From Nanobdellota archaeon (GTDB lineage Archaea > Nanobdellota > Nanobdellia > Pacearchaeales > GW2011-AR1), in NCBI GenBank assembly GCA_020053375.1, contig JAGVNG010000007.1, positions 1-49,101 on the forward strand: a stretch of 49,101 nucleotides of DNA. Reading direction: 5' to 3'. Of the stretch, positions 10,878 to 36,038 are shown piece by piece; positions within the stretch are counted from its first letter, which is position 1, and every line of letters starts with the position of its first letter. A model generated the notes under the pieces. That model was not told the origin of the DNA, made no database searches, and worked only from the letters and a program-made list of their open reading frames with translations. A program made the translations under genes and the position numbers.

Positions 10878-12308
10878 TCACTTGTTCACAACCATTTTCT
10901 TGGTCTCGACAAAATCGCCTGCCTTAAGCCTGTAAAAGTAAACTCCAGAAGATAATTTTGAGGCGTCAAAGCCTTTAGTGTATTCTCCAGCTGGAAAAAC
11001 TCCGTCGGCAAGTGTCACGACTTCTCTTCCAAGCACATCGTAAATCTTTAGGGATGCGTTGCTTGTCTTTGGAAGAAGGTATCTTATGTTTGTAACAGGA
11101 TTAAACGGGTTAGGATAATTCTGGCTAAGGGAATATTTCGCGGGAGCCTTCGGATCCTCGAGCCTTTTGACATCTGTAACTGTTGGAGTAAAGAATTCCA
11201 TGTTGCTGTTTGTGAAATTAACAGTGTCTCTTCCATCTGTTACTTTTCCTTCCAGAGTATATTTAGAGGAAGGTTGGAAGGTTCTATCTTGAATATTTAT
11301 ACTATCATTTTGAGTTGCTACAAGAGTGTCCACTCTCGGACCATTAACCCTTATCAAATATTTTAGAATGTCTCCATCGGCATCTGTTGATTTTGTATAT
11401 TTCACCGATAATTTTCCAGAATTAAACTTGACAGTGTCATTATCCTTGATATTTGTAAAAGTTGGCTGTGTTGGAAGGCTGTTGAAGTTTCTGTCCAAAA
11501 CAAGCCTTGTGGTGTCATATGATGCGAGGGTTGGAATGCCGTTAACGATGTTGAAGGTGAGAAAATCATTTTCTTCTGCTAAATTTCTCTTTAGATTAGG
11601 TTCATAAAACCACGAGAGATTTATTATTTTAACAGTGCTATTTAAAGGAATATTCCATGTTCCTGGTTTAACATTGATGCTATCATTTTGAGGCTCTACA
11701 AAACTCCAATCACTAAAATTTTTAGGATTATCTCCGACTAAAATGGCATTCATTCCATGTCCTCCGCTTTGTGAAGAAACCCCTGTTTCATAAATAGGAA
11801 TATTAAATCTTTTAACATTGGTTGTATCATATTTAAAAGTTGTTTCTTCTGGATGAAAAACATAATCTCCAAAACCATAAAAGTTAAGATGGGTCTGTCT
11901 TGCAAAATTTCCAGATTCCCATTGTCCTGCAACATAATGCAACGTATCTGTCTTGTCTACTGCAAGCATTTTTTTACGCCAAGCTTCTCTCTCAGTTCTT
12001 GTTATGCTCTGCCAGTCTGAGGGCAGTTTTGCTCCCTGTGTCAAATGCTGGTTTAAGATGGATTTATCGTTGGCAGTGCTTGGCGTTCCATCTCCGTCAA
12101 TATCTGCCTGATCAATTTTAGGAGAAGAAGACTGCATTATATCATAGTCTATCAAATCCACTTTTCCGTCGCTGTTTACATCTCCGCTTCCGTAAAATCT
12201 GGTTGTCTGGCTTGGCTGCCTGAATGGATTTATCTTGTCCTGTGACACAGCTCCAGCTGGAAAAAGCAAAGAAGCTCCCAGTAATAGTGTTAATAGTGTT
12301 TTTCTCAT
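10878..12308 (-). CDS. secreted protein with dockerin-like Ca-binding repeats and C-terminal T9SS type A / FlgD-Ig-like sorting tail
   Basis: Signal peptide MRKTLLTLLLGASLLFPAGAVS; GDVNSDGKVDLIDYDIM...ADIDGDGTPS; C-terminal LSQNYPNPFNPVTNIRYLLPKTSNASLKIYDVLGREVVTLADGVFPAGEYTKGFDASKLSSGVYFYRLKAGDFVETKKMVVNK. Confidence 0.85.
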   Translation of the reverse strand: MRKTLLTLLLGASLLFPAGAVSQDKINPFRQPSQTTRFYGSGDVNSDGKVDLIDYDIMQSSSPKIDQADIDGDGTPSTANDKSILNQHLTQGAKLPSDWQSITRTEREAWRKKMLAVDKTDTLHYVAGQWESGNFARQTHLNFYGFGDYVFHPEETTFKYDTTNVKRFNIPIYETGVSSQSGGHGMNAILVGDNPKNFSDWSFVEPQNDSINVKPGTWNIPLNSTVKIINLSWFYEPNLKRNLAEENDFLTFNIVNGIPTLASYDTTRLVLDRNFNSLPTQPTFTNIKDNDTVKFNSGKLSVKYTKSTDADGDILKYLIRVNGPRVDTLVATQNDSINIQDRTFQPSSKYTLEGKVTDGRDTVNFTNSNMEFFTPTVTDVKRLEDPKAPAKYSLSQNYPNPFNPVTNIRYLLPKTSNASLKIYDVLGREVVTLADGVFPAGEYTKGFDASKLSSGVYFYRLKAGDFVETKKMVVNK

Positions 12309-33746: not shown

Positions 33747-34301
33747 TTAAGATAACTCAAGCACAATAAGCTTCTCAAAAAATAATTTCTCTACAGCAAG
33801 AATTTTCCTTTTATAACCATTAAAATCCAATCCCTTGGTCAATGAGCTAACCAGGAGGATTATCATTCCATCTTCTGTCAGATGTTTTTTTGCCTGCTTG
33901 AGAAACCTGTTTATTATCTCGCTGCCTTTTTTTCCGCCTGTTGTTGAAACCTTTGAAGATTTTGATTCCTTTCCCGAGTTATCTTCAGGGAGATAGGGAG
34001 GATTAAAGACGATAATATCATACTTGCCCTTGGGAATCTTTTCAAATAAATCTGAAAGAATGCATTTAAACCCGAGCTCGGAACATTTTTCAGCGGCATC
34101 CGGATTTATATCTGATGAAAGGATATAATTCTTTTTCACACCAGAGCTTAATGCTGCCTCAAGCTGAATTCCGCTTCCTGAACCTATCTCAAGAAATTTG
34201 AAATTTTTGTTTTTGGATATCATCCCCGGAATAATTTTTTTGAGAGTCTCCGCAAGCAAAAAAGAATCATCGGAAGGCTCGTAAATGGTTGAATTAAGCA
34301 T
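33747..34301 (-). CDS. HemK-like methyltransferase (release-factor/PrmC family)
   Basis: EPSDDSFLLAETL; LEIGSGSGIQLEAAL; DIIVFNPPYLP. ATG at 34301; the ORF-track N-terminal extension is the DGR template repeat. Confidence 0.85.
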   Translation of the reverse strand: MLNSTIYEPSDDSFLLAETLKKIIPGMISKNKNFKFLEIGSGSGIQLEAALSSGVKKNYILSSDINPDAAEKCSELGFKCILSDLFEKIPKGKYDIIVFNPPYLPEDNSGKESKSSKVSTTGGKKGSEIINRFLKQAKKHLTEDGMIILLVSSLTKGLDFNGYKRKILAVEKLFFEKLIVLELS

Positions 34302-34325
34302 GGTTAATATCTTAGCAGCTAAGGC

Positions 34326-34419
34326 CATTCCAAAAACATAGCCATTGTTGTCGTTCCAATTGTTGCCATTGACACTCAATTGGCTGCTGTCCAAGCTCCT
34401 GTTGGAATTCAGACCCGCG
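34326..34419 (-). repeat. DGR template repeat (TR), AAC/AAT-rich
   Basis: 94-bp ungapped match to 34737-34830; all 16 mismatches at TR adenines (sense = minus strand). Confidence 0.88.
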
Positions 34420-34488
34420 CCGAACTATGTAGCCAATTAATCTCATGAAAGTTTAAAGCCTTCATGTCAGGAATCTTGCCTGCACAGA

Positions 34489-34505
34489 GCAAATATGAAA
34501 TTTGC
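34489..34505. other. hairpin GCAAAT-ATGAA-ATTTGC in TR-VR spacer
   Basis: Perfect inverted repeat. Confidence 0.5.
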
Positions 34506-34514
34506 TACACTTTT

Positions 34515-34527
34515 CCCCTAAAAGGGG
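34515..34527. other. GC-rich hairpin CCCCT-AAA-AGGGG in TR-VR spacer
   Basis: Perfect 5-bp stem flanked by T/A runs. Confidence 0.5.
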
Positions 34528-34632
34528 TAAAAAGCAAAAGTTAATTTGCACACCGGAGCTTCTCGTAAGTCGCCCCTGAATTTTATAGCTTAAAATAAAC
34601 CTTAATAATGCCTTAATTAACTGGCGTGTGGC

Positions 34633-34661
34633 CTTAGCTCATAGGCACTTGCCTAGCTAAG
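34633..34661. other. bulged hairpin CTTAGC-tca-TAGGCA-CT-TGCCTA-GCTAAG in TR-VR spacer
   Basis: Two nested perfect 6-bp stems. Confidence 0.6.
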
Positions 34662-34714
34662 ACAAAATTAATAAAAATCTTAATATTAATAAATATATCC
34701 TTTAGAAAATTTGC

Positions 34715-34727
34715 GTCCCTATGGGAC
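34715..34727. other. hairpin GTCCC-TAT-GGGAC immediately downstream of VR
   Basis: Begins about 9 nt past the sense 3' end of VR, at the target stop codon; placed like DGR target-recognition hairpins. Confidence 0.55.
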
Positions 34728-35465
34728 TTGCTTCAACACCCCAAAAACATAGCCACCGTAGTCGTACCAACTGAAGCCATCGACACCCAACTGGCCGCTG
34801 CCCAAGCTCCTGCTGGAATACAGACCCGCGACTCTCAAAACAGGTTCTTGAACTTTATCAAAATTAAAAACATTAACTCCTCTCTTGTAATGCTTGGCAG
34901 AGGATATTCCACTTAAATTTTTAGCTGTCTTTTCTTTTGTGTGTTCTAAAAGTCTTGCCAAACCGCTTTCTGCAAAATCACTGAAATCCTGAACACCTTG
35001 CTTAAATGTTTCATAGGAGGCAAATCCAAAATCATTTTCCCCAAGGTAAATACCATTCACTTTTTCAGATTTATTTAAAAGAGCTTTAAGAGTTTTCTCA
35101 TCAATTATTGGATTTCCATTATTTTTTATAATCGGATTTGCAAAAACTCCCTCTGATGTTCTTACTATATAACCAAGCTGAAGCCATTTTGGATCAAAAA
35201 TCATTGGTTTAGCCAAATTTACAAAATCATAAGCAGCTGCTGAAATTGATTCAGAGGTAGTTGGCTCCCTAAATAAAATTCTCTCTCCTGTTTGTGGATG
35301 AGAATATAATTTCTGCATTTCTGCAATATTGCTTTTGAAATAATCGGACCCAAAAGCAGGATAACTGACTGTTAAATTTCTATTTTTATGCGGAACTATA
35401 AGCAATCCTTTTGCTGGAAATTTTGGCTGTTTTGCAGAGATTATTCCGTACTGCGCTTTTTTCAT
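34719..35465 (-). CDS. DGR target (variable) protein
   Basis: C-terminus RVAGLYSSRSLGSGQLGVDGFSWYDYGGYVFGVLKQVP is encoded by VR; no obvious signal peptide. Confidence 0.8.
   Translation of the reverse strand: MKKAQYGIISAKQPKFPAKGLLIVPHKNRNLTVSYPAFGSDYFKSNIAEMQKLYSHPQTGERILFREPTTSESISAAAYDFVNLAKPMIFDPKWLQLGYIVRTSEGVFANPIIKNNGNPIIDEKTLKALLNKSEKVNGIYLGENDFGFASYETFKQGVQDFSDFAESGLARLLEHTKEKTAKNLSGISSAKHYKRGVNVFNFDKVQEPVLRVAGLYSSRSLGSGQLGVDGFSWYDYGGYVFGVLKQVP
34737..34830 (-). repeat. DGR variable repeat (VR)
   Basis: See TR; 11 A>G and 5 A>T substitutions relative to TR, no other changes. Confidence 0.88.
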
Positions 35466-35552: not shown

Positions 35553-36038
35553 TTACAGATTATTGATGAAGTTGGTTATCTCTGGCTTGAACATAAACAC
35601 CACTACAAGAATTCCAATCAGAATCATAAGCATTGCCACCATTATTATTGTTATAAGCATGCCTGTTTTCGACCGAGGGTTCTGTTCATAATTAGATACC
35701 ACTTGTGGATATTGGGCAAATTGAGGCTGAGAAAATTGTGGCTGCGGTGGAACAAATCTCGGCAGTTGTTGTGGTTGCACAGTAGGATAATAAGAAGCTA
35801 TTTGTGGAGATTGTCCTTGCACTGCGGGTTGTTGTGACTGCTGAACAGGTTTTTGAACAGGCTTAATTGACTGCTGCACTGGCTGCTGCGGCAGTTCATA
35901 CATGTTAATTTCCTGAACAGCCTCATCAACTTCATTTTTGGCGTAGCCTGAATTATAAAGGCTCTGAACCGTCTGCTGGAGATTCTGTCCCTTCAGCAAT
36001 GCGGTTCTCAGCATTCCCATAATATCTTCCCGTACCAT
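35553..36038 (-). CDS. Q/P-rich protein with C-terminal TM helix
   Basis: N-terminal helical domain LLKGQNLQQTVQSLYNSGYAKNEVDEAV, Q/P linker, C-terminal TM. Confidence 0.55.
   Translation of the reverse strand: MVREDIMGMLRTALLKGQNLQQTVQSLYNSGYAKNEVDEAVQEINMYELPQQPVQQSIKPVQKPVQQSQQPAVQGQSPQIASYYPTVQPQQLPRFVPPQPQFSQPQFAQYPQVVSNYEQNPRSKTGMLITIIMVAMLMILIGILVVVFMFKPEITNFINNL

Follow-up and report, generated by a model that had tools for sequence, protein, structure and literature searches.

A diversity-generating retroelement cassette without its own reverse transcriptase in a Nanobdellota genome, probably driven in trans

The window, i.e., the whole 49,101-nucleotide stretch of Nanobdellota DNA analysed here, carries a cassette whose origin as a diversity-generating retroelement (DGR) is virtually beyond doubt and which is, in our reading, probably a non-autonomous (‘satellite’) DGR that lacks its own reverse transcriptase (RT) and is driven in trans. 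Indeed, ORF inspection and tblastn found neither an RT nor an RT remnant in the window, and this absence is the most informative feature of the cassette. DGRs of DPANN archaea, RT-less fragments without a template repeat (PMC4372165) and trans loci (PMC10907252) were already known; what is added here is a complete template-target cassette lacking only the RT, which bears an RT-16 RNA, is recurrent, is conserved in place and co-evolves.

Anatomy of the window cassette

On the minus strand, the gene starting MVREDI is followed by the target gene with the variable repeat (VR), a hairpin, ~320 nt of non-coding sequence, the template repeat (TR), a 24-nt leader and the start codon of a methyltransferase gene (Table 1). 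In a repeat search, no direct repeat of the region was longer than the one at an offset of 411 (34330-34419 and 34741-34830, 84%). The TR and VR, aligned over 94 bp, differ at 16 positions, each of which is an adenine in the minus-strand TR (11 A>G, 5 A>T). Within the 90-bp core, changes affect 14 of 26 adenines and none of the 64 remaining positions (hypergeometric p = 1.1e-9), and the first non-adenine mismatch (34325 G / 34736 T) marks the edge of the repeat. The first-pass annotation of this DNA had placed the pair at this offset, assigned every mismatch to TR adenines with the same split of substitutions, and proposed the hypergeometric test; the repeat was recovered where it had been put, the recount gave 16/16, and the VR lies, in the frame given, at the 3′ end of the ORF that had been named. 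Its repeat coordinates hold, with printed strings that overrun them by one base, and its statement that DGRs are known from DPANN archaea is borne out by the literature (PMC4372165; clade 5F in PMC10907252). As a whole, its reading of a DGR TR/VR pair stands, and the absence of the RT, the RT-16 RNA and the hairpin had been overlooked.

Table 1. Coordinates of the cassette and its flanking genes in the window
Feature	Position	Strand	Remarks
HemK2/MTQ2-family methyltransferase	33747..34301	-	TIGR00537 118 bits (cutoff 87); ATG 34301-34299
Post-TR leader	34302..34325	-	resembles TR-to-RT leader of RT-bearing cassettes (L041, L007); no RT after it
Template repeat (TR)	34326..34419	-	ends in IMH* TGGAAT
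RT-16 RNA (Rfam RF03019)	34424..34662	-	5′ leader of TR; 68.3 bits
Long-range helix, 3′ arm (GATTAATTGGC)	34432..34442	-	followed by TA; ~10 nt before TR
Long-range helix, 5′ arm (GCCAGTTAATT)	34615..34625	-	pairs 11/11 with 3′ arm
Post-VR hairpin GTCCC-ATA-GGGAC	34715..34727	-	target stop codon overlaps loop
DGR target gene	34719..35465	-	248 aa, orphan family; relatives have homologs in cassettes with an RT
Variable repeat (VR)	34737..34830	-	3′ end of target gene; ends in IMH TGGGGT, motif as in PMC4372165
Gene starting MVREDI	36038-35553	-	other flank of target

The cassette thus combines adenine-specific substitution with a VR at the 3′ end of the target gene, has both the IMH and the IMH*, and carries an inverted repeat directly after the VR, as expected of a DGR. 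DGR-associated RTs were found solely on two other contigs of the genome (C7 and C27), and the cassette is classed as a non-autonomous rather than an autonomous DGR because it holds no DGR-type RT. No third copy of the window TR/VR was detected in the genome (up to 3 mismatches, TR adenines taken as N), and a genome-wide search found no additional VR served by the window TR or the C27 TR.

The non-coding stretch belongs to the RT-16 RNAs, as its covariance-model score exceeds the RF03019 gathering threshold of 50 bits (a second search gave a shorter match of 54.6 bits), and in archaeal DGRs RF03019 is placed here as the leader of the TR, even where no RT follows. Independently of the Rfam match, a family helix was found in which YACAYG[GCC...] pairs with [...GGC]TA just upstream of the TR; over 43 cassettes, the arms of the same cassette gave 410 paired positions versus 333 +/- 7 when arms were swapped (z = 10.9). 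The post-VR hairpin is likewise family-wide, being strong in 21 of 33 cassettes where shuffling predicts 1.5. Avd is not universal among DGRs, and between VR and TR no ORF of at least 60 aa was seen except one antisense to the VR.

Where relatives carry an RT in the cassette, the target-VR is mostly followed by RT-16 RNA, TR and RT, in this order. In the window, the TR ends 24 nt upstream of the MTQ2 start codon, which occupies the usual position of the RT start codon. MTQ2 directly adjoins an MVREDI-like gene in one relative (L025, homolog of 35553-36038), and the two are near neighbours in another (L029); thus, the target-VR-RNA-TR unit is lodged between two native genes, and MTQ2 is a native housekeeping gene of the locus that now stands in the RT position. 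A role of MTQ2 as a functional replacement of the RT was considered and rejected, since the gene is native to the locus and absent after most other RT-less cassettes.

RTs and RT-less cassettes in the genome and the family

The window genome (G000) is a MAG of 33 contigs, about 91% complete, with four RT-16 cassettes, two with an RT (C7 and C27) and two without (the window and C19). Both RTs are intact, 74% identical to each other, carry YVDD and a DGR-like GNLTSQ motif, and each lies directly 3′ of its own TR, for which there is a matching VR. In C19, TR and VR differ at adenines, save one base and a 3-nt gap. This second RT-less cassette (L155:3183-4340) lies beside lysyl-tRNA synthetase, and its target family, common to G022, G062, G077 and G108, differs from that of the window.

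In the mechanism that we propose, the satellite unit would consist of target, VR, hairpin, RT-16 RNA and TR, set between two housekeeping genes. A DGR RT encoded on another contig, C7 or C27, would recognise the window RT-16/TR RNA and copy it, misreading adenines, and the cDNA would replace the VR at the IMH/hairpin, altering up to about a dozen C-terminal residues of the target. The RT would then act on the window cassette in trans, the RT-16 RNA presumably being its recognition element, and the system may be active at present.

The RT-16 RNA was searched over 181 family genomes (the relatives named here being Pacearchaeota, Woesearchaeota and other Nanoarchaeota MAGs), of which 67 were positive. 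Among the 123 loci in these 67 genomes, an RT lies within 1.6 kb at 100 and none at 23, a count judged from draft contigs in the other genomes and including a few loci near contig ends, with weak matches or with an RT fragment. Most RT-less loci examined have adenine-only TR/VR pairs, with non-adenine/adenine changes of 0/10 (L156), 0/9 (L157), 0/13 (L158), 1/12 (L160), 0/8 (L163), 0/10 (L166), 0/11 (L168) and 0/13 (L122); the alignment requires gaps in L169 and L170, and no VR was found within the stretch fetched for L159, L162 and L164. With no non-adenine change in 64 positions, the window resembles RT-intact cassettes (0-1 in 64 nt), and some frame-disrupted cassettes have 3-4.

Two pairs of RT-less cassettes from different genera occupy orthologous loci: G000:C19 and G062:C6 at a common lysS / rnhA / acylphosphatase (acyP) locus, and G103:C48 and G077:C154 beside the same Rmt-like methyltransferase. 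At the non-adenine columns where the TRs differ, both VRs match their own TR in 6 of 8 cases (C19/G062) and 13 of 15 (G103/G077). Since TR and VR co-diverge at these sites with no RT beside either, they moved together after the lineages split, and copying went on without a local RT. The RT-less arrangement is recurrent and long-lived in this archaeal family. As separate observations, L157 and L163, both RT-less and with different RNA subtypes, share an ABC-ATPase locus in two genera (a possible insertion hotspot or replacement), and at L050, L053, L054 and L172 the RT-16 RNA/TR/VR is convergent with the RT on the opposite strand, the RT ORFs being mostly longer (about 480 aa).

In the RNA tree, the RT-less label is clustered (8 changes against 14.6 when shuffled, with 0 of 500 shuffles as low), and one RT-less clade covers four genera. 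The window cassette stands apart from these, as an RT-less case within an RT-bearing clade. The loss of the RT could be recent here and independent at the orthologous loci. The C7 and C27 RTs are sisters in the RT tree (99/98), and their RNAs fall in different supported subtypes, the window RNA being of the C27 subtype. The same pattern was observed in G020, where the RTs are sisters and the RNA subtypes differ; sister RTs without sister RNAs occur in G057 and G103. The RT and RNA trees are incongruent, and hence an RT is not restricted to a single RNA subtype; such incongruence, as read from the trees, is what either an RT serving several RNAs or an exchange of modules would be expected to leave, and an RT of the former kind may work on the RNA of the window.

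Proposed remote action, its alternatives and known systems

The best surviving alternative, which we nevertheless consider unlikely, is a fossil in which the RT that once followed the TR has been deleted and the VR is frozen at its last rewriting. The post-TR leader, similar to RT leaders, and the MTQ2 start codon where that of an RT would be fit this reading, and decayed cassettes do exist, e.g., L116 with a truncated RT. However, a fossil is at odds with the 64 unchanged non-adenine positions and the lack of any RT remnant in the window, and other RT-less cassettes have been retained at orthologous loci in different genera, their TR and VR continuing to diverge together. Remote action is therefore favoured over a fossil, because TR and VR evolve in concert in these cassettes. 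Much less probable still is that most cells bear the RT and that the assembly shows a deletion variant or a misjoin: the source is a MAG, and such variants were documented in Thiohalocapsa DGRs 3 and 7 (PMC10907252), but the downstream MTQ2 is intact and native to its neighbourhood, and RT-less cassettes occur in independent MAGs, two pairs of them at shared loci. Finally, a chance repeat or an ordinary gene duplication without any retroelement, for which no supporting point was found, is already refuted by the combined signature of adenine exclusivity (p about 1e-9), RT-16 RNA, IMH/IMH*, hairpin and homologous cassettes with an RT.

The closest known systems are the nanoarchaeal (DUSEL4) DGRs of Paul et al. 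2015, which share with the window a DPANN host, several DGRs per genome, orphan targets, the IMH TGGGGT / IMH* TGGAAT and a short-loop hairpin, although the loop is ATA here and GRA there (PMC4372165). Their RT-less partial DGRs consist of a target, a VR and cis elements only and were left undecided between fossil and remotely diversified (PMC4372165), whereas the window cassette keeps its own TR and RT-16 RNA, so that its template-target pair is complete save the RT, and our comparative evidence favours remote action. In Thiohalocapsa PB-PSB1, incomplete or remote DGR loci also miss components, and trans action was proposed; in contrast to the window, where TR and VR match nothing but each other, its clear trans cases use the TR of another locus, and its loci without a matching TR elsewhere were ascribed to structural variants, whereas RT-lessness here is conserved across genera (PMC10907252). 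The BPP-1 DGR shares the TR/VR, the IMH, the post-VR stem-loop and adenine mutagenesis (PMC12875486, PMC3240598), but the window shows no avd gene between VR and TR and no RT in cis, and its structured RNA lies 5′ of the TR instead of in the 3′ spacer. The RT-16 RNA provides a marker by which DGR cassettes without an RT are found, and such cassettes are missed by surveys blind to remote loci, e.g., that of PMC8144416, in which remote loci were undetected by its own statement. If remote action holds, DGRs would reach further in DPANN genomes than is now estimated, with template RNA, RT and target as separable modules.

Frame-broken RTs and the target protein

The frame was broken in 40 of 77 distinct DGR RTs sampled, a frequency that is no estimate since the sample was partly selected for split RTs, and a (G)n/(GA)n tract was present in 38 of the 40 broken versus 6 of the 37 intact ones (Fisher p 3e-13). 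Of 45 tracts, 44 lie at two loops (176-186 and 237-239 in C27 RT residue numbering); the C7 RT of the window genome has a G7 in frame at the second of these, and the L079 RT is broken only near its end. Tracts or frameshifts were recorded at L031, L057, L062, L071-L079, L083, L117-L121, L191-L206 and L007:1335. Several broken-RT cassettes (L031, L062, L074 and L077) keep clean TR/VR pairs, as a recent or reversible switch-off would predict, and the RTs of the family are apparently phase-variable through these tracts. Split RTs working as two-subunit enzymes are less likely than phase variation, given that 38 of 40 breaks come with a simple repeat and that in-frame versions exist. We give an even chance to a divided system in which few RNA-promiscuous RTs, many of them switched by slippage, would serve dispersed RT-less cassettes of RT-16 RNA and target among housekeeping genes; one phase-variable switch could then control the diversification of several genes together. 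Our literature search, over a limited set of papers, found none on phase-variable DGR RTs or RT-less cassettes, and the apparent phase variation would add a switch undescribed in the DGR papers searched.

The first-pass annotation had taken the target protein for probably ligand-binding and proposed to model its C-terminus for a C-type-lectin or Ig-like fold. Searches against Pfam, NCBIfam, PADLOC and PDB sequences gave no match to the protein. Its AlphaFold model is confident (pLDDT 80, pTM 0.83), and Foldseek against PDB and BFVD gave insignificant matches only. Note that archaeal AvpA, another orphan target, was recognised as a C-type lectin only by crystallography (PMC5006420), so that the window target, which may bind a ligand, could still have a C-type-lectin fold. 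Some target homologs belong to RT-bearing cassettes (L041, L074 and L075), and others have no nearby TR; an iterated HMM search drifted into RTs, some frames reading through the TR, and its later rounds were discarded. Homologs at L024, L025, L028 and L029, with no TR or RT in about 10 kb, may be remote VRs or former targets. Elsewhere in the window, positions 10878-12308 encode a 476-aa protein in which a dockerin-like stretch and a C-terminal FlgD/type-IX-secretion-like sorting domain were recognised by eye, a combination odd in an archaeon.
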